Source: Flavobacterium sp. 9 (GTDB lineage Bacteria; Bacteroidota; Bacteroidia; Flavobacteriales; Flavobacteriaceae). From it: a stretch of 64,000 nt of DNA. The notes below the pieces were generated by a model, which was not told the origin of the DNA, did not search any database, and saw only the letters and a program-made list of their open reading frames with translations. Position numbers and translations under genes: made by a program. Shown piece after piece: positions 5,524-38,400 of this stretch. The stretch is from assembly GCF_002754195.1 (NCBI RefSeq), contig NZ_PEEU01000001.1, positions 3,844,001-3,908,000 of the forward strand. The letters are read 5' to 3'. Numbering within the stretch: the first letter of the stretch is position 1; each line of letters begins with the position of its first letter.

Positions 5524-6399
5524 ATGATTAGCATCGATCCAAAAGAAGTTACAACGGCAAAATTGCATGGTTATTTACAAAGTGCTGTCGGACCCAGACC
5601 AATTGCATTTGCAAGTACGATTAGTACAAAAGGAATCCCGAATTTGTCGCCATTTAGTTTCTTTAATGTGTTTAGTGCCAATCCTCCAATTTTAGTTTTT
5701 TCTCCGGCACGTCGTGTACGCGATAATACTATAAAACACACTTTGATTAATGCCGAAGCAACCCGCGAGGTAGTAATTAATGTAGTTAATTATGATTTGG
5801 TACAACAAACATCATTAGCCAGTACTGAATATGCTGAAGGTGTAAATGAATTTATAAAAGCAGGATTAACCCAAATACCGTCAGATTTGGTAAAACCATA
5901 TCGGGTAAAAGAGTCTCCGGTGCAGTTTGAATGCAAAATCACGCAGATAATTCCGTTAGGAACAGAAGGCGGAGCAGGAAATTTGATTCTATGTGAAGTG
6001 GTTAAAATGCATATTCATGAAGCTATTTTAGATGAAAACGGAGCAATCGATCAGCATAAAATAGATTTGGTTTCAAGATTGGGAAGTAATTGGTATTCAA
6101 GGTCAAATCAAGGACTTTTTGAAGTGCCAAAACCGCTTACAACTTTAGGAGTAGGCGTAGACGTGATTCCTAATTATATCAAGGAAAGTCCCGTATTTGA
6201 TGGAAATGATCTTGGAAAATTAGGCAATATAGAAGCCTTGCCTACGACGGAAGAAGTTAGTATATTTGTGAAGGAAAATTTTTCTGTGAAAGGAGTTCTA
6301 AGCTCGGATGATCAGGAAAAAGTACATTTAGAAGCCAAAAAATACCTGAATAAAGATGATATTTCATCTGCATGGAAAGTGCTTTTAGCAAAGAAATAA
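5524..6399 (+). CDS. Flavin reductase-like (FMN-binding split-barrel) protein
   Basis: A 291-residue cytoplasmic protein. The N-terminal region (about 5-190) is the flavin reductase-like split barrel, with LQSAVGPRPIAFASTI and the phosphate-contacting LSPFSFFN segment typical of the flavoredoxin/DIM6-NTAB group. The last 90 residues are a family-specific extension. Members bind FMN and move electrons from NAD(P)H or partner proteins; the physiological substrate cannot be predicted. The DUF3127 gene starts 30 nt downstream and is likely cotranscribed. Confidence 0.88.
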   Translation: MISIDPKEVTTAKLHGYLQSAVGPRPIAFASTISTKGIPNLSPFSFFNVFSANPPILVFSPARRVRDNTIKHTLINAEATREVVINVVNYDLVQQTSLASTEYAEGVNEFIKAGLTQIPSDLVKPYRVKESPVQFECKITQIIPLGTEGGAGNLILCEVVKMHIHEAILDENGAIDQHKIDLVSRLGSNWYSRSNQGLFEVPKPLTTLGVGVDVIPNYIKESPVFDGNDLGKLGNIEALPTTEEVSIFVKENFSVKGVLSSDDQEKVHLEAKKYLNKDDISSAWKVLLAKK

Positions 6400-15240: not shown

Positions 15241-15265
15241 CGTAGAGGCGCACAGCAGTGCGTCT
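15241..15265. repeat. GTAGAGRCGCACAGCAGTGCGTCT repeat unit
   Basis: CGTAGAGGCGCACAGCAGTGCGTCTT matches, with small changes, three units at 29.6-29.8 kb. The core GCAC/AGCA/GTGC forms a short hairpin. It lies in the thiS-thiC gap. Confidence 0.7.
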
Positions 15266-15307
15266 TTTTATGTTGTTCTTTTATATGTTTTTTTAATTGG
15301 AATTTGG

Positions 15308-26661: not shown

Positions 26662-29508
26662 TTAATGCGCCGCTAGCCAGTCTTTACCCATACCAAGTTC
26701 AACTTCTAAAGGAACTGCCATTGTAAAAGCATTTTCCATTTCGTGTTTAATCATTGGTTGGATTTTTTCTAATTCGTCATTATGCACATCAAACACAAGC
26801 TCATCATGAACCTGAAGTAACATTCTTGATTTCCAGTTTTCTTCTTTTAATTTTTTATGAATGTTGATCATCGCGATTTTAATCACATCGGCAGCACTTC
26901 CTTGAATTGGCGCGTTTACAGCATTTCGTTCAGCAGCGCTTCTAACTACAGCATTTGCCGAGTTGATATCTTTTAAATAACGACGACGCCCCAGAATTGT
27001 TTGTACATATCCTTTTTCGCGTGCAAACTCAATTTGCTCGTTAATATAAGATCTAAGTCTTGGATATGTTTTGTAATAAGCTTCGATCAAAGCGGCACTT
27101 TCGCTACGAGATAATGAAGTTTGATTGCTCAAACCAAAAGCAGAAACACCATATATAATACCAAAATTTACCGTTTTGGCATTGCTTCTTTGTTCGCGGG
27201 AAACTTCGTCCAAAGGAACATCAAATACTTTTGCCGCTGTAGCTTTGTGAATGTCTTCTCCGTTTTTGAAAGCGGCAATCATATTTTCTTCTCCGCTTAA
27301 AGCGGCAATAATTCTTAATTCTATTTGCGAGTAATCGGCAGAGATTAAAGTATGGTTTTCATCGCGTGCAACAAAAGCTTTACGAATCTGACGACCTCTT
27401 TCAGTACGAATTGGAATATTTTGTAAGTTCGGATTATTAGAACTCAAACGTCCAGTTGCAGCAACAGTTTGCATGTAATCTGTATGAACGCGTAATGTTT
27501 TCTTGTCAACTTGTTCCGGCAAAGCCAAGATATAAGTGCTTTGTAATTTTACCATTTGACGCCAATCCAGAATTTCTTTTACGATTGGATTATCATTCGC
27601 TAAATACGTCAAAACTTCTTCGCCAGTTGCATATTGACCGGTTTTGGTTTTCTTTTGTTTTGCGCCTCCAATTTTAAGTTTATCAAATAAGATATCACCT
27701 AATTGTTTTGGAGAAGCAAGATTGAATTTCTCGCCTGCAGTCTCGTATATTTTTTGTTCCAAAGATTTAATCTCAACATCCATTTCTTTAGACATTGCTT
27801 TTAGAAATTCAACATCAAGACGAATTCCTTCGGTTTCCATTGCTGCCAAAACACTTACTAACGGAATTTCGATTTCGTCAAATAACTTCTTAGTTTCTGT
27901 TTTGTCTAATTCGGTTGTGAAAATTTCTTTTAATTGTAAAGTTACATCAGCATCTTCTGCGGCGTATTCTTTAATGTCTTCAAGAACTACATCGCGCATT
28001 GTGATTTGATTTTTTCCTTTTTTACCAATTAATGTTTCAATAGATTTTGGTGAATATTTTAAATAGGTTTCAGCTAAAATATCCATATTATGACGCATAT
28101 CCGGATTAATCAAATAATGCGCAATCATTGTGTCAAAAAGTTTTCCTTTTACAGTAACACCATAATTAGAAAGGATTTTTAAATCGTATTTTAAATTCTG
28201 ACCAATTTTTTCGATATTTTCATTCTCAAAAAATGGTTTGAATTTATCCACTAAAACCTGAGCTTCTTCTTGATTTTCCGGAAACGGAACATAAAAAGCT
28301 TTTCCTTTTTCATAAGAAAAAGACATTCCTACTAATTCAGCGTGTAAAGCGTCTAAACCAGTTGTTTCAGTATCAAAACAAACAGAAGTTTGGTTTTGTA
28401 AATTTTGTAAAAGCAATTTTATTCCTAAATCGCCTTGAATAGCCTGATAGGAATGTGGTGTATTTTCTAAAGTATTATAAAATGAAGTTCTTGCCGTTTC
28501 TGGATCTTCTTCTGTAGAACCGCCTCCAAAAAGGTCAAATTGATCTTCATTTTTAGGTTGTGGTTTTTTGTATAATTTTGGATCAGAAGCAGGAGCAGAA
28601 GCTGCTAATTCATTTCCTCCGCCAGCTTTAAACAGATTGTCAAATTGTTCTGCCATTCTTCTGAATTCTAATTCTTGAAAAATAGCATCTGTTTTTTCGA
28701 TATCAGGACGTGTTAACTCATAATCGTTTTCATCAAAAGTTACCGGACAATCCAATAAGATAGTTGCCAGTTTTTTAGACAATAATCCTTTTTCTTTATT
28801 GGCTTCGATATTCTCTTTCATTTTTCCTTTTAGCTTATCAGTATTTGCTAAAAGGTTTTCCATAGTTCCATATTCTTTCAGAAGTTTTTTGGCAGTTACT
28901 TCACCAACTCCCGGAAGTCCCGGAATATTATCGGCAGCGTCACCCATCATTCCAAGAAAGTCAATTACTTGCTCCGGACGATCGATTTCGAATTTTGCCA
29001 AAACTTCAGGAACACCCCAAATTTCAATTCCGTTACCCATACGAGCCGGTTTGTACATAAAGATATTCTCAGAAACTAACTGTGCAAAATCCTTATCGGG
29101 AGTTACCATGAAAACTTTGTAATTTTCTTTTTCAGCTTGTTTTGCAATTGTTCCAATCAAATCGTCGGCTTCAAAACCGGCAACTTCAATAATCGGAATG
29201 TGCATTGCTTTTAATAATTCACATATGTAAGGAACAGCAATTTTGATAGCTTCTGGTGTAACGTCACGATTTGCCTTGTATTCAGGGAATAATTCGTTAC
29301 GCAATTGACTTCCGCCTTTATCAAAAGCTACTGCCAAATGATCTGGTTTTTCACGTTTAATAACATCCAAAAGCGAATTCATGAAACCCATGATCGCTGA
29401 TGTATCCATTCCTTTAGAGTTAATTCGCGGATTTTTTATGAAGGCATAATAACCACGAAAAATTAAAGCGTAAGCATCGAGAAGAAAAAGACGTTTTTGA
29501 GTTGACAT
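26662..29508 (-). CDS. polA: DNA polymerase I
   Basis: A 948-residue enzyme with all three domains. The 5'-3' exonuclease (about 1-290) has the GFEADDLIGT motif. The 3'-5' proofreading domain (about 350-540) keeps DTETTGLD, LKYDLKIL and YAAEDADVT, so it looks active, unlike in some phyla. The polymerase domain (about 560-948) has motif A SADYSQIELRI, motif B NAKTVNFGIIYG and motif C VHDELVFDV. It does gap filling and RNA primer removal. An insert rich in Ala/Pro/Lys lies near 300-340. A -7 box on the minus strand (TAAATTTG) is at 29578-29585. Confidence 0.98.
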   Translation of the reverse strand: MSTQKRLFLLDAYALIFRGYYAFIKNPRINSKGMDTSAIMGFMNSLLDVIKREKPDHLAVAFDKGGSQLRNELFPEYKANRDVTPEAIKIAVPYICELLKAMHIPIIEVAGFEADDLIGTIAKQAEKENYKVFMVTPDKDFAQLVSENIFMYKPARMGNGIEIWGVPEVLAKFEIDRPEQVIDFLGMMGDAADNIPGLPGVGEVTAKKLLKEYGTMENLLANTDKLKGKMKENIEANKEKGLLSKKLATILLDCPVTFDENDYELTRPDIEKTDAIFQELEFRRMAEQFDNLFKAGGGNELAASAPASDPKLYKKPQPKNEDQFDLFGGGSTEEDPETARTSFYNTLENTPHSYQAIQGDLGIKLLLQNLQNQTSVCFDTETTGLDALHAELVGMSFSYEKGKAFYVPFPENQEEAQVLVDKFKPFFENENIEKIGQNLKYDLKILSNYGVTVKGKLFDTMIAHYLINPDMRHNMDILAETYLKYSPKSIETLIGKKGKNQITMRDVVLEDIKEYAAEDADVTLQLKEIFTTELDKTETKKLFDEIEIPLVSVLAAMETEGIRLDVEFLKAMSKEMDVEIKSLEQKIYETAGEKFNLASPKQLGDILFDKLKIGGAKQKKTKTGQYATGEEVLTYLANDNPIVKEILDWRQMVKLQSTYILALPEQVDKKTLRVHTDYMQTVAATGRLSSNNPNLQNIPIRTERGRQIRKAFVARDENHTLISADYSQIELRIIAALSGEENMIAAFKNGEDIHKATAAKVFDVPLDEVSREQRSNAKTVNFGIIYGVSAFGLSNQTSLSRSESAALIEAYYKTYPRLRSYINEQIEFAREKGYVQTILGRRRYLKDINSANAVVRSAAERNAVNAPIQGSAADVIKIAMINIHKKLKEENWKSRMLLQVHDELVFDVHNDELEKIQPMIKHEMENAFTMAVPLEVELGMGKDWLAAH

Positions 29509-29577
29509 AAAAAAAATATTAGTCTGTAAAAATAATCAATTGGGTTTTAAAAACGATTCGGTTCTGAAAAATAAACA

Positions 29578-29585
29578 CAAATTTA
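29578..29585 (-). promoter_or_regulatory. -7 box upstream of polA
   Basis: Plus CAAATTTA equals TAAATTTG on the minus strand, 70 nt before the polA start. No -33 match was found. Confidence 0.45.
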
Positions 29586-29611
29586 AAATGAGAATTATTT
29601 TCTGTCCTATA

Positions 29612-29637
29612 CGTAGAGACGCACAGCAGTTCGTCTA
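29612..29637. repeat. GTAGAGACGCACAGCAG repeat unit A
   Basis: CGTAGAGACGCACAGCAGTTCGTC, an imperfect copy of the unit at 29685-29708. It lies in the 419-bp gap between polA and the small secreted protein gene. Confidence 0.7.
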
Positions 29638-29684
29638 TGGTTTGAAATTGTTTTTCACCATATAAGTTATGTAAGTTCATTTCA

Positions 29685-29792
29685 GTAGAGACGCACAGCA
29701 GTGCGTCTAAGGTTTAGAAGGATTTTATTAGGATTGAATTTTAAATTAATTTGTTTGTATTCTATAAAAGACGTACTGCTGTGCGTCTCTAC
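29685..29792. repeat. Inverted pair of GTAGAGACGCAC repeat units
   Basis: The unit at 29685-29708 and its reverse complement at 29769-29792 match at 23 of 24 positions, 60 bp apart. Each unit is itself a small hairpin (AGACGCAC-AGCA-GTGCGTCT). The whole could fold as a long cruciform or act as a transcription barrier downstream of the polA promoter region. Confidence 0.75.
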
Positions 29793-29850
29793 ATGGTAGA
29801 AAAACTCTTAAATAGTTAATGTCAAGTTAAAATATTTAAGACGAGGGTTT

Positions 29851-29886
29851 TCTTCATTTTGTCTTCATATTACAGGGGTAAATTTG
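29851..29886 (+). promoter_or_regulatory. Promoter with tandem TCTTCAT operator (site 1)
   Basis: TCTTCAT at 29851-29857 and again at 29862-29868 (11-bp period), then 10 nt and the -7 box TAAATTTG at 29879-29886. The TTTG between the repeats also fits a -33 element (17-nt spacer). The repeat period and position are typical for OmpR-type activators. An identical layout precedes 32717. Confidence 0.7.
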
Positions 29887-29927
29887 ATCTGTAAAATAAA
29901 AGGTATTAATATAAAAATTTAGAAATC

Positions 29928-30149
29928 ATGAGAAATTTATTGATGTTACTAGTAGCGGTTTTAGGAACAAGTGTTATGGTAAATGCATTTCCTGCAAAAG
30001 GTACTAAACCAGCTCAGGCTAAAGAAGTAAAAGCAACTCCTGCAAAAGAAGTTAAAGCTACAAAAGAGCCGAAAAAAAAATCTGAGAAAAAAGCAAAATC
30101 AGAAAAAACTGTAGCTCCAAAAGCAGAAGCTACTAAAGCGAAAAAATAA
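29928..30149 (+). CDS. Small secreted Lys/Ala-rich protein (paralogue 1)
   Basis: A 73-residue protein. The signal peptide MRNLLMLLVAVLGTSVMVNA is cleaved after Ala20. The mature chain has 53 residues with 18 Lys and many Ala, Glu and Thr and no Cys or aromatic residue except the first Phe. A short internal duplication AKEVKAT occurs twice. It is predicted disordered and strongly basic, exported to the periplasm. The signal peptide is nearly the same in two neighbours (30205, 32717). Composition and setting recall enterobacterial Asr, without alignable homology claimed. Confidence 0.8.
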   Translation: MRNLLMLLVAVLGTSVMVNAFPAKGTKPAQAKEVKATPAKEVKATKEPKKKSEKKAKSEKTVAPKAEATKAKK

Positions 30150-30204
30150 AAAAGAACAAAAGAGCATTAAAAAATAAAAGGCAATTAATTTAAATTTAAA
30201 AGTT

Positions 30205-30396
30205 ATGAAAAATCTAGTTATGTTACTCGTGGCAGTTTTAGGAACAAGTGCAATGGTTAGCGCACAAACAACTCCAACTCAGGCAGCTCCTGCAAAAGAG
30301 GTTAAAGCAACAAAGCATCACAAACACAATACTGATAAAAAAGCAAAATCAGCAAAAAGTGAGGCTCCAAAAGCAGATGCAACTAATATGAAATAA
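30205..30396 (+). CDS. Small secreted Lys/His/Ala-rich protein (paralogue 2)
   Basis: A 63-residue protein with a signal peptide (1-20, ending VSA) almost identical to that of its neighbours. The 43-residue mature chain starts QTTPTQAAPAKEVKATKHHK and is basic, with a KHHKH cluster that may buffer protons or bind metal. It lies 55 nt after paralogue 1 with no promoter between, so they are cotranscribed. A terminator follows at 30478-30510. Confidence 0.78.
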   Translation: MKNLVMLLVAVLGTSAMVSAQTTPTQAAPAKEVKATKHHKHNTDKKAKSAKSEAPKADATNMK

Positions 30397-30477
30397 TAGA
30401 AATTGTTTTTGTTTTGCTTTCGAAGAATTGTAAAGGAGGCAAAACAGAAGTAATGATTATGGAGAATGCGGTTGAGG

Positions 30478-30510
30478 AAAGCTGGTAAAGAAATTTATCA
30501 GCTTTTTTTT
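30478..30510 (+). terminator. Terminator after the first secreted-protein operon
   Basis: The stem AAAGCTG(G)TAAA with TTTATCAGCTTT is followed by a T run. It separates the small protein genes from the regulator gene. Confidence 0.8.
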
Positions 30511-30588
30511 GATTCGTTAATTTTTTAATAATGCGTAACACGGCCTTTTATAATTACTTAAATTTAGTTGCGCTTAAAAGCTGTTTTT

Positions 30589-31263
30589 ATGAATATTTTG
30601 ATTGTTGAAGATAATAGAGAACTCGCTGTCGAGGTTTACGATTTTTTGTGCAACGTGGGTTATGTGTGCAAAATAGCGCATAATTGCAGTGATGCTCTTG
30701 ACGAAGTTAGTAGTAACGATTATGATGCAATGTTATTGGATCTTGGTTTGCCTGATGGAGACGGTTTTGAGGTTTTGAAAACGGTTCGGAAAACCAAATC
30801 AAAAATGGCAGTAATTGTTCTGACAGCTCGAGGAGAATTAGACGACAGAATAAATGGTTTACATTTGGGAGCAGATGATTATTTGACAAAACCATTTGCT
30901 TTGACGGAACTTAGTGCGCGATTATTTGCTGTAATTCGCAGGATTCATGGATTCACGTTAAATAACTTGAGTATTCATGGATTTTTGCTGCAACTTCAGG
31001 ATTATAAAGTGAGTTATGATGAAATTCCAATAAACCTTACCAAAAAAGAGTTTGATATTTTTCAATATTTAGTTCTGAATAAAAACAGGGTAATTACGAG
31101 ATTACAATTAACAGAACATATTTGGGGAGATATTCTGGAGGTAAATTCAGACTCTAATTTTATAGATGTTCACGTTCGGAATCTGAGAAAAAAACTGGAT
31201 AAACATACCGCAATTGATTGGTTTGAGACCGTAAGAAATGTTGGATATCGTATTAATGAATAA
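30589..31263 (+). CDS. OmpR-family response regulator
   Basis: A 224-residue protein from ATG 30589. The frame extends to a TTG at 30568, but family length and the standard MNILIVEDN start favour the ATG. The receiver domain (1-115) has the acidic pair Glu7-Asp8, phosphoacceptor Asp51 (MLLDLGLPDGDG), and the Thr and Lys of the VLTARG and LTKPFA segments. The C-terminal winged helix (about 125-222) has NLTKKEFDIFQYLV and DVHVRNLRKKLD. The kinase gene starts 11 nt later. It likely binds the TCTTCAT pairs on both sides of the locus. Confidence 0.93.
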   Translation: MNILIVEDNRELAVEVYDFLCNVGYVCKIAHNCSDALDEVSSNDYDAMLLDLGLPDGDGFEVLKTVRKTKSKMAVIVLTARGELDDRINGLHLGADDYLTKPFALTELSARLFAVIRRIHGFTLNNLSIHGFLLQLQDYKVSYDEIPINLTKKEFDIFQYLVLNKNRVITRLQLTEHIWGDILEVNSDSNFIDVHVRNLRKKLDKHTAIDWFETVRNVGYRINE

Positions 31264-31273
31264 ATAAAGAACT

Positions 31274-32611
31274 GTGAAAATAAAACATCAATTAGCCATT
31301 TTTAATGCTCTGACACGATTGTTGGTTATTTTGATTTTATGGTTAATGCTGCCTATTTTGGTAGAAAATGTGGTTTATAGACACATCAATAATGGATTGC
31401 TGGAAAAGAAGCATAAGTTCATCGAGCATTTGGATAAAAATGAAATTGATGATTTTATCGAAAATCCAGATGATTCAACCGAAACTTACTCACAGTTTTC
31501 TACGCTTCACAGTGAGTTTTTAGTGCTTTCGAGATCTCCGATAAAACCCAATCAGAAGAAAGCGGTTTTTAGTAATGATTTCAGGATTATTGAAGGCGAA
31601 GAAAATGAATACAGGATTCTACAGTATCATTTTACGTATGAAAATCAAGGATATCAACTCGAAATAGGGAGTAGTCTTAGTGAAGTAAATGATCTTACTT
31701 TTATTATTCGGTTTTTTATTATCATTGTTTTTGTGGTTATTCTGTTGATTACCTTTTTGGCAGATACTTTTTATATCGAATTTTTATTGAAGCCTTTTTA
31801 TAAAATTATCGACACAAAAATTAGGCGTGTAAATGAACCGGAATCTTTTGATCATACACCAATAAAAGCGACATCAAGAGATTTTAGAGAACTGGATTTT
31901 GTTTTAAACCAAATGATGGATCGTATTACGGAGCTTTTTAAAAAAGAAAAACAGTTTATTTCGAATGTTTCTCACGAGCTTCTTACGCCAATTGCGCTGC
32001 TTAAAAATAAGTTTGAGAATTTACTCCAAAATAGTTCTCTAGACGATAATGCTGTGGATAAAATTGCAGGTTCTCTCAGAACATTAGATATGCTGAAAAA
32101 AATCATCAATAACTTATTGTTGATTTCCCGAATTGAAAATAATCAGTATGAAGCAAACGAAGAAATTAACTTTCATGAAATTATTTCAGATCTGCAGGAA
32201 GATTTATTAGATCGAATTGATGATCGTGAAATACAGTTTCTGAACAAGATGCAACATAATTATATCTTTACAGGAAATAAAACCTTAATTCATATTCTGA
32301 TTTATAATTTGGTGACAAATGCCATAAAATACAATAAACCTAAAGGAAGTATTGTGGTGGAAGATGGTTTCCTGGAACATCGTTATTTTATTTCCATTAC
32401 CGATTCAGGAATTGGAATGACTTCTGCTCAGCTGGAAAATATATTCAACAGATTTGCCAGAATTAGTTCAGATCAGGATGGTCAGGGTTTAGGGCTTGCT
32501 ATTGCTGAGAGTATTGCCTCTTTTCATCATATTGAAATCAAAGTTACTTCGCAAATAAAAGAAGGAACTACCTTTATGTTATTGCTTCCGGAAGCTGTAA
32601 AACACAATTAA
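31274..32611 (+). CDS. Membrane sensor histidine kinase partner of the adjacent regulator
   Basis: A 445-residue protein starting with GTG. TM1 is at about 13-33, a periplasmic sensor of roughly 105 residues follows, TM2 is at about 143-164, and a HAMP-like linker comes before the phosphoacceptor helix NVSHELLTPIALL with His234. The ATPase domain has LVTNAIKYN (N-box), DSGIGMTSAQL (G1) and GQGLGLAIAESIA (G2). The sensor is acidic (runs such as DKNEIDDFIENPDD) with several His, which would suit proton or cation sensing; that is a guess. It is in an operon with the response regulator. Confidence 0.93.
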   Translation: MKIKHQLAIFNALTRLLVILILWLMLPILVENVVYRHINNGLLEKKHKFIEHLDKNEIDDFIENPDDSTETYSQFSTLHSEFLVLSRSPIKPNQKKAVFSNDFRIIEGEENEYRILQYHFTYENQGYQLEIGSSLSEVNDLTFIIRFFIIIVFVVILLITFLADTFYIEFLLKPFYKIIDTKIRRVNEPESFDHTPIKATSRDFRELDFVLNQMMDRITELFKKEKQFISNVSHELLTPIALLKNKFENLLQNSSLDDNAVDKIAGSLRTLDMLKKIINNLLLISRIENNQYEANEEINFHEIISDLQEDLLDRIDDREIQFLNKMQHNYIFTGNKTLIHILIYNLVTNAIKYNKPKGSIVVEDGFLEHRYFISITDSGIGMTSAQLENIFNRFARISSDQDGQGLGLAIAESIASFHHIEIKVTSQIKEGTTFMLLLPEAVKHN

Positions 32612-32637
32612 AAGTTAATTTTTTATGGTTGGTCCAA

Positions 32638-32673
32638 TCTTCATTTAATCTTCATTTACTGATTATATCTTTG
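32638..32673 (+). promoter_or_regulatory. Promoter with tandem TCTTCAT operator (site 2)
   Basis: TCTTCAT at 32638-32644 and 32649-32655 (11-bp period), then exactly 10 nt and the -7 box TATCTTTG at 32666-32673. No separate TTG -33 box is present, as expected for an activator-dependent promoter. It has the same geometry as site 1 at 29851. Confidence 0.7.
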
Positions 32674-32716
32674 AGGTATAATAAATGAAATAATAACAAT
32701 CATAAAACTTCAAATC

Positions 32717-32902
32717 ATGAAAAAATTAGTAATGTTAGCAGTAGCTGTTTTAGGAACAACTGCAATGGTAAGCGCTCAAACTACTCCAGCTCAAACAACT
32801 CCGGTAAAAGAAGCTAAAGCTCCTAAAAAAGACAAAAAAGCTGATAAAAAAGCTAAAAAAGCAGAAGCTGCTAAACCAGAAGCTGCAAAAGCTCAAAAAT
32901 AA
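32717..32902 (+). CDS. Small secreted Lys/Ala-rich protein (paralogue 3)
   Basis: A 61-residue protein with signal peptide MKKLVMLAVAVLGTTAMVSA and a mature chain starting QTTPAQTTPVKEAKAPKKDK, almost wholly Lys, Ala, Glu, Pro and Thr. It is alone between its own TCTTCAT promoter and a terminator. Signal peptide and the first mature residues match paralogue 2 closely, so recent duplication is likely. It is predicted to be disordered, cationic and periplasmic. Confidence 0.8.
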   Translation: MKKLVMLAVAVLGTTAMVSAQTTPAQTTPVKEAKAPKKDKKADKKAKKAEAAKPEAAKAQK

Positions 32903-32967
32903 AACAACATTGGTTTACCCTGTAAACCTGTTGTGGATTATTAAAGGTTTTGAAAAATTTGGTAGAG

Positions 32968-32999
32968 AAAAAGCTGATGGAGAAATCTATCAGCTTTTT
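32968..32999 (+). terminator. Terminator after the third secreted-protein gene
   Basis: AAAAAGCTGAT (32968-32978) pairs with ATCAGCTTTTT (32989-32999). The stem sequence resembles the terminator at 30478, which supports block duplication. Confidence 0.85.
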
Positions 33000-33079
33000 A
33001 CATTTATTAGAGTTAAATTTTTGATAATAAAAAGCTATAAAATTTTCATTATTTGTTACTTTGCTTAAAACTATAACTA

Positions 33080-34315
33080 ATGATAATTCGTTTTGTAATT
33101 CTCTGTGCTCTTTTTTTGTTTATTGAGTTCTATTCTTATCAAGCCATCCGCACTTTAATCAAACTAAGATGGGTTTTGGTTAGCTATCAAATTATAAGTT
33201 TACTGCTTTTAATTTTTATCATTTACTCTTTCACGCAATTCGATCGTTCTGTTGGACAAACTAAGCAAACCATGTTTACAATGGGTTTGATGTTATTGGT
33301 TTACGTTCCAAAAATTGTAATTACGTTAGTTTTATTAGGTGAAGATGTTTTTAGATTAGGAGCGGGAGCAATTAATTATTTTATAGACAATCCAAGTAAT
33401 ACAAGTGTTTTTCCTTCGAGGAGAAAATTTATTAGTCAAATAGGTTTAGGTTTGGCGGCAGTTCCTTTTTTATCCTTAATTTACGGAATATTTGAAGGAA
33501 AATATAATTTTAAAGTCATCAAACAAACGGTTTTCTTTCCTGATTTGCCAGATGCTTTTGATGGTTTTAGAATTACTCAGATTTCAGATGTTCACAGCGG
33601 AAGTTTCGATGATCCTGAAAAAATAAATTATGCCATTGATTTGATTAATGAACAAGAGGCGGATATGATTTTGTTTACTGGAGACATTGTAAATACTCAT
33701 GCCAAAGAAATGCATCCGTGGCTAGATACTTTTAAAAGAATTAAAGATTATAAATACGGGAAATTTTCTGTTTTAGGAAATCACGATTACGGAGAATATG
33801 TTACGTGGCCTTCTGAGAAAGAAAAAGACGAAAATTTTAAAGAAATTAAAAGCCTTTATGGTCAAATAGGATTTAACCTTTTGTTGAACGAACATACTTA
33901 TATTCAAAAAGGAGATGACAAAATTGCATTAATTGGAGTAGAGAATTGGGGACAAAATTTCAAGAAAGCTGGAGATTTAAATAAAGCATCTCAAAATGTG
34001 CATCAGGATGATTTTAAGGTATTAATGAGTCATGATCCAAGCCATTGGGAATATGAAATTAAAAATCACCCTAAAAATTTTCATTTAACATTGTCAGGAC
34101 ATACACATGGCATGCAATTTGGAATTGAAATTCCGGGATATTTTAAATGGAGTCTGGCGCAGTACATCTATAAACAATGGGCTGGTCTATATGAAAATGT
34201 AGGAAGATATGTTTATGTAAATCGAGGTTTTGGTTTTCATGCTTATCCGGGTCGAGTAGGTATTATGCCTGAAATAACTGTGATTGAACTAAAAAAAGGG
34301 AACAATGTGGCTTAA
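33080..34315 (+). CDS. Membrane metallophosphoesterase with internal twin-arginine motif
   Basis: A 411-residue protein. Three or so transmembrane helices occupy 1-90. SRRKFIS at 113-119 is followed by a hydrophobic stretch to about 137. The calcineurin-like domain (about 150-405) has every metal motif: SDVH, TGDI, GNHDYG, MSHDPSHW and SGHTHG. Related YkuE-type enzymes act outside the membrane and use Tat export, so the internal SRRKF may direct Tat transfer of the catalytic domain. The substrate, perhaps a phospholipid or UDP-diacylglucosamine-like compound, is not determinable. Confidence 0.88.
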   Translation: MIIRFVILCALFLFIEFYSYQAIRTLIKLRWVLVSYQIISLLLLIFIIYSFTQFDRSVGQTKQTMFTMGLMLLVYVPKIVITLVLLGEDVFRLGAGAINYFIDNPSNTSVFPSRRKFISQIGLGLAAVPFLSLIYGIFEGKYNFKVIKQTVFFPDLPDAFDGFRITQISDVHSGSFDDPEKINYAIDLINEQEADMILFTGDIVNTHAKEMHPWLDTFKRIKDYKYGKFSVLGNHDYGEYVTWPSEKEKDENFKEIKSLYGQIGFNLLLNEHTYIQKGDDKIALIGVENWGQNFKKAGDLNKASQNVHQDDFKVLMSHDPSHWEYEIKNHPKNFHLTLSGHTHGMQFGIEIPGYFKWSLAQYIYKQWAGLYENVGRYVYVNRGFGFHAYPGRVGIMPEITVIELKKGNNVA

Positions 34316-34329
34316 TTCGTTAAAAATGC

Positions 34330-34337
34330 TACATTTG
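34330..34337 (+). promoter_or_regulatory. -7 box of the thioredoxin-like gene
   Basis: TACATTTG lies 53 nt before the ATG at 34390, just after the phosphoesterase stop. No good -33 element was seen. Confidence 0.45.
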
Positions 34338-34389
34338 TATATAATTATCTCTTTTTAACAGAATAATAAAGAATTAAATTTTTGGTTTT

Positions 34390-34692
34390 ATGTCAAAATT
34401 TGGAGAACTTATAAATGCTCAAGTTCCAGTGTTAATTGATTTTTACACGGATTGGAACGAATCATCTGTATCGATGCATCCTGTTATTAAGGATGTTGCG
34501 GCTGCGCTTGGCGATAAAGCTAAGGTGATTAAAATTGATGTGGATAAAAATCAGGAATTAGCAGAAGCGCTTCGTATAAAAGGACTTCCTACTTTAATGA
34601 TTTATAAAGAAGGGCAAATGATTTGGAGACAATCAGGAGAACTTGATGCAAATACAATTATTGGAATTGTCCAGGAACAATTTAACTTATAG
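34390..34692 (+). CDS. Thioredoxin-fold protein lacking the redox cysteines
   Basis: A 100-residue protein with the full thioredoxin pattern: PVLIDFYTDW, KVIKIDVDKNQELAEALRIKG, and LPTLMIY containing the cis-Pro. The active site, normally WCGPC, reads WNESS, and the protein has no Cys at all. It cannot do dithiol exchange. It may serve as a chaperone or a partner subunit, as other Cys-less thioredoxin folds do. No signal peptide, so cytoplasmic. It has its own likely promoter and stands between unrelated genes. Confidence 0.9.
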   Translation: MSKFGELINAQVPVLIDFYTDWNESSVSMHPVIKDVAAALGDKAKVIKIDVDKNQELAEALRIKGLPTLMIYKEGQMIWRQSGELDANTIIGIVQEQFNL

Positions 34693-34708
34693 AATAAACT
34701 ACTTCTTA

Positions 34709-34737
34709 TTTGATATTATTTAGTGAATAATATCAAA
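34709..34737. terminator. 12-bp perfect hairpin between convergent genes
   Basis: TTTGATATTATT (34709-34720) and AATAATATCAAA (34726-34737) pair fully around TAGTG. The right arm encodes the last residues of the deacetylase and the loop holds its stop. There is no strong U-tract, so it may be a weak terminator or an mRNA 3'-end protector. Confidence 0.55.
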
Positions 34738-35355
34738 CTTATATCCATTTTCTTTTAAAAAATGTAAGGTTTTAGGTAACGCAAATTTTAAGTTCTGCGA
34801 TGCTTTTATGCTGTCATGAAATACAATTACACTTCCTGATTTTACGTTTTTGGTAACGTTTTCAAGACATTTTTCAGGAGTAATGCTTTGGTCAAAATCG
34901 GCGCTCAAAACATCCCACATAATTATTTTGTAGCCTAGATTTCTTAGAATTTTAGATTGCGCTTTTTTAATCTTCCCGTAAGGAGGACGAAATATCAGGT
35001 TGCATGTTTTTTCTTCTTCTAAAACGGCAGCGCAGTTTTTTACATTTTCAATGTAATCGTTATTGTTGCTTTTCCAGCCATTAACATGATTCATTGTGTG
35101 ATTTCCTATTGCATGTCCATCTGTTAGTAGTTTTTCAAATAAGGACAAATTAGCTTTAATATTTTTTCCAATACAGAAAAAAGTAGCTTTTGCATCAAAC
35201 TTTTTCAATTCAGACAAAACCCAATCTGTGACCTCTGGAGTTGGGCCATCATCAAACGTGAGGTATATTTTCTTTTCTTTGTTTGGAATGTCCCAACAAT
35301 ATTTAGAAAATACCCTTTTTATGAATGAATTTGTTTTTACCCAGTAAAAGCTCAT
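34720..35355 (-). CDS. Polysaccharide deacetylase (NodB-homology) family protein
   Basis: A 211-residue protein. The NodB domain starts YLTFDDGPTPEVTDW; the second Asp is the metal ligand and the first the catalytic base. HAIGNHTMNHVNGW gives the two metal His, RPPYGK is the third motif, and VIVFHDS near the C-terminus supplies the catalytic His. It likely deacetylates a peptidoglycan, chitin-like or exopolysaccharide chain. No classical signal peptide is seen, which is odd for this family; the N-terminus FYWVKTNSFIKRVF may be a membrane-associating segment. Confidence 0.88.
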   Translation of the reverse strand: MSFYWVKTNSFIKRVFSKYCWDIPNKEKKIYLTFDDGPTPEVTDWVLSELKKFDAKATFFCIGKNIKANLSLFEKLLTDGHAIGNHTMNHVNGWKSNNNDYIENVKNCAAVLEEEKTCNLIFRPPYGKIKKAQSKILRNLGYKIIMWDVLSADFDQSITPEKCLENVTKNVKSGSVIVFHDSIKASQNLKFALPKTLHFLKENGYKFDIIH

Positions 35356-35384
35356 TTTGGAAGGATTTAGTTATATGTAAATTT

Positions 35385-35426
35385 AAAAAATGCAGCGCTA
35401 TTTATCAAACAGTGCTGCATTTTTTT
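35385..35426 (-). terminator. Terminator after the DUF2723 gene
   Basis: AAAAAATGCAGC pairs with GCTGCATTTTTT around a partly paired loop. On the minus strand a T run follows. Confidence 0.8.
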
Positions 35427-35447
35427 AATTAGTATATTTTTCGTATA

Positions 35448-38400
35448 TTATTCTTTTTCACGACCAAAACGTTCAAACACGTTTACATAAGTATTAAAAG
35501 TTACTTTGTGTTTTTCGTAGAATGCTTTATCGTTGTTTTTCTTCATAACTTCCAATAAGCTTCTGTAACGCTCGATATCAGTGATAATATCCATTGCTAA
35601 GTCTGTTTGGTCGCCAGGAGTTAAAGTAGCATAATAGTTTAAGTTCTCTCTGTATTTTTGAACTAATTTATCAAGTAGATCATGTGCTTTTGCAGTTTCT
35701 CCAACTTTATAATATCCATTAGTAAAAGGCTCAACAAGAGAATAATATCCATATTTATCCAATGGCATTTTTGTTATCGCCAGATTGATAATGTTTTTAG
35801 CTTTATCAATTTTACCTTCTGCGATAAGTTGATCCATTAAACGCGATAGATTCGTGCGATATGTTATACTGTTTCTTCTAGTTTCAGGATCATGATAAAT
35901 ATTACCATTGCTGTTACCCCAATCCCATTTCATTACAATGTCGTACATTTTATCGGCGTCAATTTGACCCATATCCATTGGTCCGCCATCTTTTGAAGGA
36001 ACATTTTTAATAGGAACCAATTTGTAAACCATTCCGTCTAATTGTAAATAGTTTTTTAACCAAAGATAATCTTCATCATCAAAAGCTCCACCACTAAAGT
36101 AAATTGGTCTTTTCCAATTGTTATTAGCCAAGATGTCTAACATCATTAAACGGTTTTTGTATAATGCTCTTCCTTTGATATCAATATCGATATAAGGTAC
36201 AATAGAATCATTGTATTTTGGATCAACAACCTTGTTTTTAATGATCGTATTTTTGTCAACACTCAATCTTATTTTATTTGTTGGATAAAAATGAATTGTT
36301 TGTCCGTTTTGTAATCCAACAGTAGATTTAGGGTTTTTAATGAAAGACATTAAATCTTTGATATCCCAACGAGTTTCAACTTTTTGAATGTAAGCAACAT
36401 AATCTAGTTTATCTCCAACATATTCATCATGTGTAAATGATATTGGTAATGGATCAGATTCGTATGATTTTGCTTTCATTTGATCAATATACCAATCCGT
36501 CATAAATAAACTTGTATTTACGATTTTTACATCGGTTCTGATGTGCTCAATTTCTTGCGCATACCAGAGCGGGAAAGTATCATTATCTCCAATAGTGAAC
36601 AAAATAGCATCTTTATCACAGGAATTCAAATAAGCTTTTGCCATTGCAACTGCAGTATATCTTTCTGATCTGTCATGATCGTCCCAGTTTTGAGACGCCA
36701 TTAAAACCGGAGCTGCTAAGAAAGTTGCTGCAATAATAACTGGTCCTGCAATTTTGGGAGCAATATATTTTTGTATACTTTCATATAGAGAATAGACTCC
36801 AAAGCCTATCCAGATTGCAAACACATAGAAGGATCCTACAAGTGCATAATCTCTTTCACGAGGTTCAAAAGGGCGTTCGTTTAGGTATATTTTTAATGCG
36901 ATTCCGGTAAATAAGAATAATGCCAAAAGAACATAAAAACTTTTGAGGTCTTTATTTGCATGGTACATTATTCCAATTAAACCTAAGATAAATGGCAAGA
37001 AAAAGTAAACGTTACGTCCTTTGTTGTTTAAAACATCAGTTGGTAAGTTGTCTTGAGAGCCAAGGTGTAATGAGTCAAGCGCTTTGATTCCGCTGATCCA
37101 GTTTCCATCCAGATTGTCATATTTTCCCTGAACATCACTTTGACGACCAACAAAATTCCACATCAAATATCTCCAATACATATATCCAAATTGATATTCG
37201 AACATAAAACTGAAATTGTCTGCAGTTGTTGGTTTTTCTATTATTAGATATTCACCATAGCTGTTTAAGAATTTAACGTAACCTTCGTTGTCGATTTGTT
37301 TTTGAGCGTAAGCTTTTCTGAATTCAGAAACTGTTTTTTCAACTTCATTACGCAATTGCGCAGTAGCTTTGTTGTATTCTTCTTCGCTTAATTGGCTCGC
37401 GTCAATTCCGTATTTTGCTAAATCTTCATCATAACTATGATTTGGATCTATTTTGAAAGCAGGAGGATTTGTGAAGCTAATATAATTTTGGATGTGTCCG
37501 GTTTCGGTGCTCCACATTCTTGGCAGAATAGTTTTCTGATTGTCATCAGAATTTTGTTCTGCATTTTTATAATTGTTGGTAATAATATATTTACCAGTTT
37601 TATAATCTCTTTCGTAGTTAGGTTTTTTATCTAAATAAGGAGTTTTTGCATCCAGACCAGCAAAAAGTTCTGTGTATTGAGGTCCGTAAAACAATGGATT
37701 TACACCATATTGTTCACGATTATAATATGCTAAAACCTCTGTAGCATCTGATGGTTTGTTTTCGTTAATTACTGTATTGGCGTTAGCACGAACCGGTAAC
37801 ATGATCCATGTTGAGAAACCAATAAGTATAAATAGAATACAAACAATAATAGTGTTGTAGAAAACTAATCCTTTTTGTTTGGTGTATTTAAGGCCAAAAT
37901 AAAAGAAAGCAATAAATAATAAAGCAACAAAAATAGTTCCTGAGTTAAAAGGTAATCCCATGCTATTTACCATGTAAATCTCGGTTTTACCAAAGAAAGC
38001 CATTGTTAATGGTAATAAAAGCTTGAAAATAAACAATAGAATTGCAATTACTACAGCATTAGCAATAATGAAATTTTTTATAGTAACTTTTTCGTAGTGT
38101 TTGAAATAGTAAAGAAAACCAATTGCGGGAATAGTCAAAAGTGCCATGAAGTGAACACCAAATGAAAGTCCAATAACAAGAGAAATGATTAATAACCATT
38201 TGTTTCCTTTTGGTTTGTCCATGTCTTGTTCCCAGCGTAATCCAAGCCAAAAAAGTAATGCGATTAATAGAGATGCCATTGCATAAACTTCGGCTTCAAC
38301 AGCATTAAACCAGAAACTGTCAGAGAAAGTATAAGCAAGAGCTCCAACAAAAGAGCTTCCTAATATAACAATTGAATTGTTTTGATCGATCTCAGTAAAA

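Follow-up and report, generated by a model that had tools for sequence, protein, structure and literature searches.

Escherichia coli Asr is a small exported, basic chain rich in Lys and Ala, and class-II activation with polymerase recruitment is established for the OmpR/PhoB family of regulators. To our knowledge, few two-component regulons have been defined in Bacteroidota. The E. coli asr promoter carries a PhoB box that spans −39 to −22 and overlaps the −35 region (PMC9026648). The Asr protein itself has been characterised as disordered and as a net-charge chaperone (PMC10746267), and the PmrA box reads CTTAAT-N5-CCTAAG (PMC3973317). Here we analysed a locus in a 64-kb piece ("the window", G000:C1:3844001-3908000) of the single-contig genome of Flavobacterium sp. 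9 (6,328,714 bases), where three small exported Lys/Ala-rich proteins are encoded around an OmpR-type regulator and a membrane kinase. This arrangement, reported in an initial annotation of the window, was present as described, as revealed by open reading frames and Pfam. The same annotation had proposed a stress circuit with the small cationic proteins as output and a Bacteroidota counterpart of Asr as its identity. Co-occurrence across genomes and a conserved box speak for the two-component output; the Asr identity was not supported. The regulator very probably switches on the flanking small genes via this box, and we lean towards a dedicated envelope circuit of PmrA-like type, with small periplasmic polycations of one family as its main output. 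The features of the locus are as follows.

29852..29868, + strand: putative operator box 1, direct repeat CTTCAT-N5-CTTCAT with an 11-bp period (sequence reading, pattern search, kept in relatives)
29879..29886, + strand: predicted −7 element TAAATTTG, 10 nt past box 1, placing the box at about −39 to −23 (pattern search, F. johnsoniae consensus)
29928..30149, + strand: small exported Lys/Ala-rich gene 1, 73 residues (open reading frame list, profile search, composition)
30205..30396, + strand: small exported Lys/Ala-rich gene 2, 63 residues, with KHHKH (open reading frame list, profile search, composition)
30480..30511, + strand: putative terminator hairpin and T-run closing the gene 1-2 unit (folding, −10.9 kcal/mol, z −3.5)
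30589..31263, + strand: OmpR/PmrA-like response regulator, 224 residues from a conserved ATG (Pfam, NCBIfam, PDB search, orthologs)
31274..32611, + strand: membrane sensor histidine kinase, 445 residues (Pfam, NCBIfam, structure model)
32639..32655, + strand: putative operator box 2, direct repeat CTTCAT-N5-CTTCAT (sequence reading, pattern search)
32666..32673, + strand: predicted −7 element TATCTTTG, 10 nt past box 2 (pattern search)
32717..32902, + strand: small exported Lys/Ala-rich gene 3, 61 residues, the kinase's most conserved partner (open reading frame list, codon test, relatives)
32968..32999, + strand: predicted terminator hairpin 3' of gene 3 (folding, −18.5 kcal/mol, z −6.0)

Probable operator boxes and the two-component pair

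Two operator/promoter sites of the same layout, at 29852-29886 and 32639-32673, had been missed in the initial annotation. Both lie 5' of a small gene (genes 1 and 3) and read CTTCAT, 5 nt, CTTCAT, 10 nt, TANNTTTG. In F. johnsoniae, measured −7 elements follow the consensus TANNTTTG/TAHHTTTG (PMC6847099), and TANNTTTG was likewise measured in F. psychrophilum (PMC9723704). Over 150 distinct sites, the repeat was TCTTCATTT-N2-TCTTCATTT, reaching past the letters in the search pattern; by the numbering of the −7 element, the window repeats lie at about −39 to −23. The free −7 positions (−10/−9), which the search pattern leaves unconstrained, were without G in 139 of these sites, matching the F. 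johnsoniae TAHHTTTG. Tandem half-sites 5 bp apart, as in the PmrA box, were found at both window sites and at the 150 distinct sites.

The full pattern (the repeat plus TANNTTTG at a spacing of 9-11 nt) had two sites in the 6.33-Mb genome, upstream of genes 1 and 3. The repeat alone also had two, with one match for the reversed control. Base-frequency expectations, assuming 34% GC, were 0.003 for the full pattern versus 1.5 for the repeat, so the full layout is rare and the repeat alone is not. Relaxing the half-sites gave six more two-mismatch sites in the window genome (reversed control two), but a correctly spaced TANNTTTG followed none of them. The pattern was drawn up after viewing the two window sites, and the relatives serve as the independent test.

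Gene 2 has no box of its own, and we infer that genes 1 and 2 probably form one transcript. The hairpin at 30480-30511 was not reported by the separate terminator scan, which did report the gene 3 hairpin. Rfam gave no match.

The receiver and Trans_reg_C domains of the regulator and the HisKA and HATPase_c domains of the kinase all scored above the Pfam gathering scores, giving the OmpR/PhoB-family arrangement of a receiver plus winged-helix regulator with an adjoining HisKA/HATPase_c kinase. The most likely start of the regulator is ATG 30589 rather than TTG 30568, because its orthologs start at the equivalent Met. Among the matches listed in a PDB sequence search, its nearest solved structures were DrrD and BasR/PmrA, closer than PhoB; RstA was absent among the 35 matches listed. 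The PmrA model scored 182.7 bits on the regulator, under its cut-off of 330, and a CztR/SilR/CopR-type model also matched below cut-off.

The best NCBIfam match of the kinase was NF052314 (PorY family), with 253.3 bits over residues 3-424 and a cut-off of 350. Its periplasmic domain spans residues 36-143 approximately (~108 residues; boundaries by eye) and is predicted with moderate confidence to be PAS/Cache-like, as judged from a structure model. This sensor domain has invariant residues, acidic ones among them; in a PDB sequence search it matched nothing below E 0.2.

Two further elements adjoin the locus. Just 5' of box 1 (29616-29789) there are three copies of a near-palindromic GAGACGCACAGCAGTGCGTCT repeat, resembling repetitive extragenic palindromic elements, and one more lies at 15245-15266 (copies counted at ≤3 mismatches; none in 100 shuffles). 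Directly downstream, at 33080-34315, a YaeI/LpxG-like metallophosphoesterase is encoded (Pfam Metallophos above cut-off, NCBIfam below cut-offs). Its LSGHTHG motif was found in 45 of 80 kinase loci, and 66 of the 80 showed the N-terminus of polA; both counts are limited by flank length.

Co-occurrence of kinase, box and small genes

The genus sample comprised 101 Flavobacterium genomes, the window's own included. A kinase ortholog (E ≤ 1e-60), the exact box pattern and the small-protein profile at E < 1e-9 were each detected in 27 genomes, and the three lists were identical. The other 74 genomes had none of the three at these thresholds, and the reversed pattern matched 0 genomes. Because the genomes are related, 27/27 against 0/74 does not stand for 101 independent events. 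Almost all exact box sites (49/50) were located in the kinase locus. The small genes were not commonly present without a kinase-regulator pair, their matches at E < 1e-9 being confined to the 27 kinase genomes, which agrees with the link that the initial annotation had drawn.

Seven further Flavobacterium genomes had small-protein profile matches of only 2.5e-7 or weaker. Five weak matches (L128-L132) were rejected as other proteins, their best box match having at least 8 mismatches within 160 nt upstream; further weak matches were frames of 701-752 residues in five genomes. One row of the profile has faulty N-terminal letters, and omitting it changed the scores on the collected loci only slightly. 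Two of the rejected matches, L128 and L129 (both from 3001, + strand), are tiny signal-peptide proteins of 58 residues, rich in Lys and Cys, with KKSCC, and metallothionein-like in look.

At the family level, the box pattern was found in 2 of 397 genomes, both Flavobacterium (3 Flavobacterium sampled), and in 0 of the 394 genomes of the other genera, against 2 genomes for the reversed control; the search did not extend beyond the family. Of 149 family genomes searched with the small-protein profile (E ≤ 1e-6), the window's own was the one that matched. "Bacteroidota counterpart" was thus too wide a label, the pattern being confined to Flavobacterium across the family sample.

Kinase relatives, the best 80 of 553, were then compared at the locus level; loci of F. 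hibernum and F. hydatis were among the relatives retrieved. Of the 80, 78 had a box with no more than one mismatch, 77 a downstream box with a small Lys-rich gene, and 60 an upstream box with a Lys-rich gene. Of the three loci outside the 77, L200 is cut by a contig end, and L234 from F. cellulosilyticum and L243 from a Pedobacter (42% identity) lack the downstream pair. L234, without a box, pairs in the tree with L233, which has one; the tree has long branches. Under a stricter filter the counts were 59 upstream (L171 dropped) and 74 downstream (L208, L224 and L227 dropped). These four loci do have small Lys-rich genes, those of L224 and L227 being diverged.

At 127 of 149 boxes, a detected small gene began at the first ATG. 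The other 22 comprised 13 with the same kind of gene, at a different start or behind an earlier out-of-frame ATG (read by eye), five with the regulator as the next open reading frame, and four ahead of a PepSY-like exported protein (L221, L236, L238, L222). The PepSY-like identity refers to Pfam PF11396, for which three proteins were scanned, one scoring above and two below the cut-off; L222, L236 and L238 were called by resemblance. A PepSY-like exported protein occupied the box-controlled upstream slot instead of the Lys-rich gene at L121 (4764-5231), L222, L236 and L238. No publication was recognised as treating this locus in a literature search that had most subscription papers outside its coverage.

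Small polycationic proteins and extent of the probable regulon

As initially described, the signal peptides of the three proteins are near-identical (20 residues; four differences between genes 1 and 2, three between genes 2 and 3, by hand count). From residue 21, where mature chains were cut throughout, including those of a few chains with an earlier alternative start, genes 1, 2 and 3 encode 53, 43 and 41 residues, of which Lys, Ala, Glu, Pro and Thr make up 85, 70 and 85%. The annotated KHHKH cluster is carried by gene 2; the mature chains of genes 1 and 3 have no His. Net charges are +12, +6 and +8, the isoelectric point is about 10, and Cys is absent. A gene 3 query at E ≤ 10 matched only these three genes in the window genome.

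The small open reading frames look like real genes, because the uncorrected ratio of nonsynonymous to synonymous differences (pN/pS) was 0.43 over 61 gene-3-slot genes, the window's included, and because the motif KE[VITASK][KRT] occurred in 155 of 160 distinct mature chains (per-chain shuffling: mean 50, largest 63), so that a core resembling KEVK is common to the chains beyond what shuffling gives. At the codon level, the gene 3 orthologs show purifying selection; this test was restricted to genes of up to 66 residues that passed the filter. Across the 80 kinase loci, 165 small chains averaged ~45 residues past residue 20 and were Cys-free, with a net charge of +5 or more. Small-gene copies numbered four in 2 loci, three in 22, two in 37 and one in 17, with none detected in 2. 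A candidate role as precursors of ribosomally synthesized and post-translationally modified peptides, raised by weak chryseobasin matches, was rejected: no maturation enzyme was recognised among the open reading frames near the locus, where no family search for one was made.

The regulon appears small. A longer pattern allowing two mismatches gave 1-3 sites in each of the 27 genomes, four of them off-locus (reversed control one match). The exact box found off-locus in genome G094 lies 32 nt 5' of the start of an 874-residue protein with LPG_synthase_C and LPG_synthase_TM domains, which by these domains is an MprF homolog:

L120 3333-5957, − strand: mprF-like gene of genome G094, exact box at 5990-6024 (box search, domains)

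Genes related to mprF were present in 6 of the 27 genomes (E ≤ 1e-80), and only that of G094 had a box. In G015 and G054 the two-mismatch sites lie ahead of PepSY-like genes, most orthologs of which do not keep the repeat upstream; with the repeat so poorly kept these sites were treated as chance or minor members. The off-locus site of G053 had no ortholog support and was set aside. Exact, two-mismatch and relaxed patterns thus gave one convincing off-locus case, the G094 site. The recognisable output of the circuit would mainly be the flanking genes, since the other three off-locus boxes were not conserved in look. The PepSY-like genes examined (L139-L155) mostly have a common AAAGTAGTAATTTTAATACG-like upstream element, seemingly of another regulon (by eye).

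Proposed circuit, alternatives and known systems

In the circuit we propose, the kinase would sense an envelope signal through its periplasmic domain, whose PAS/Cache-like fold was modelled with moderate confidence, and would phosphorylate the OmpR/PmrA-like regulator, as established for these families. The regulator would occupy TCTTCATTT-N2-TCTTCATTT, which lies next to the −33 region at about −39 to −23, and recruit polymerase in class-II fashion. Activation of this kind, reaching the small genes on either side and sometimes, depending on the species, the regulator itself, is strongly supported by comparative sequence evidence. The products, as read from the sequence, are signal-peptide-bearing, Cys-free, low-complexity polycations, their disorder being judged from composition. 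In the periplasm they may serve as counter-ions, as a coat or as net-charge chaperones, with anionic surfaces or aggregating proteins as their targets. We infer this effector function because of their charge, the net-charge chaperone role described for Asr (PMC10746267) and the mprF-like co-target in one species; it would be Asr-like, reached independently. More tentatively, and with modest expectation, the two-component system may serve almost wholly to supply the periplasm with polycations encoded by genes; as protein counter-ions, these would tune the charge of the envelope in parallel to PmrA-type lipid A modification or MprF phospholipid modification, with the mprF-like gene of G094 as a second arm.

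It is unlikely, though worth weighing, that the small proteins act chiefly as ligands in a feedback on the kinase, the polycation either binding to the periplasmic sensor or competing with the stimulus of that sensor, and so turning the system down or up. The clear targets, namely the flanking genes, sometimes the regulator, and one mprF-like site, are typical of a closed loop, and the invariant residues of the sensor include acidic ones. However, up to four copies per locus (2 of 80 loci) suit bulk effectors better, and a loop without other output would be purposeless unless the real regulon was missed. We give a still lower probability to metal or proton buffering through His/Lys clusters in answer to copper, zinc or similar stress. 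His is present in 87% of 87 upstream-class and 49% of 78 downstream-class mature chains, the regulator matches the sub-threshold CztR/SilR/CopR-type model, and 2 of 13 family members gave weak mini_HHHH matches (best E 2.3e-4). Yet window genes 1 and 3 lack His, no detected chain has Cys, and no metal transporter was recognised among the open reading frames adjoining the locus or behind the boxes examined.

Secretion as cationic antimicrobial peptides against competitors is improbable: the products are small and cationic with a signal peptide, but hydrophobic residues are few (mean 4.1 per mature chain in the upstream and 2.5 in the downstream class), and no exporter or immunity gene was recognised among the open reading frames of 27000-36000. 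That the box is read by a different regulator, with the pair a chance neighbour, is highly improbable: kinase and box go together without exception in the 101 genomes (27 with both, 74 with neither), the box lies ahead of the regulator itself in five loci, and the DNA-binding segment of the regulator is nearly invariant across its 30 commonest versions. Membership of the true Asr family, by common ancestry or transfer, is largely refuted and has hardly any probability left. Size class, export, composition and inferred two-component control are alike, each protein combining a signal peptide with a basic Lys/Ala-rich mature chain, and sub-threshold matches exist. Gene 2 nevertheless scored 13.0 bits on PF06392 against a cut-off of 24.9, and genes 1 and 3 had no match at E up to 1. 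Among 13 family members, PF06392 touched one (E up to 1) and NF033636 three, weakly (best E 0.011). The curated cut-offs of both models were missed, such matches are common to unrelated low-complexity families, and the box occurs only in Flavobacterium within the family searched.

We return to the dedicated envelope circuit. We would class it as a new subtype of OmpR-family two-component system whose dedicated output is an uncharacterised family of small proteins, because it is Asr-like in outline yet failed the Asr family tests. Comparative genomics yields a likely operator, the geometry of its promoter and few targets, in most genomes two promoters, so that one reporter and a handful of deletions would suffice to test what the stimulus is and what polycationic envelope proteins do. 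If the effector reading is true, Asr-like periplasmic polycations arose more than once.

The PorY family kinases (NF052314) are the best NCBIfam match of the kinase, under cut-off; its Flavobacterium partner is an OmpR-type regulator. PmrA/BasR is among the nearest PDB relatives of the regulator in the matches listed, and the system shares with it tandem 6-bp half-sites with a 5-bp gap and, in one species, a cationic-envelope theme through the mprF-like gene. The system differs in its half-site, CTTCAT instead of CTTAAT, in missing the PmrA model cut-off, and in its kinase, which unlike that of PmrAB has a ~108-residue periplasmic domain with a PAS-like model; no lipid A modification gene was recognised behind the boxes examined. 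The likeness to E. coli Asr (PF06392/NF033636; RstBA, PhoBR) lies in a small exported basic chain under what appears to be two-component control, and in a box at about −39 to −23, placed similarly to the PhoB box of asr at −39 to −22 (PMC9026648). Unlike Asr, the Flavobacterium family misses the Asr cut-offs and has up to four copies, and its PmrA/DrrD-like regulator and kinase are linked to their targets. On the best reading, the small proteins are Asr-like by analogy, not by descent.

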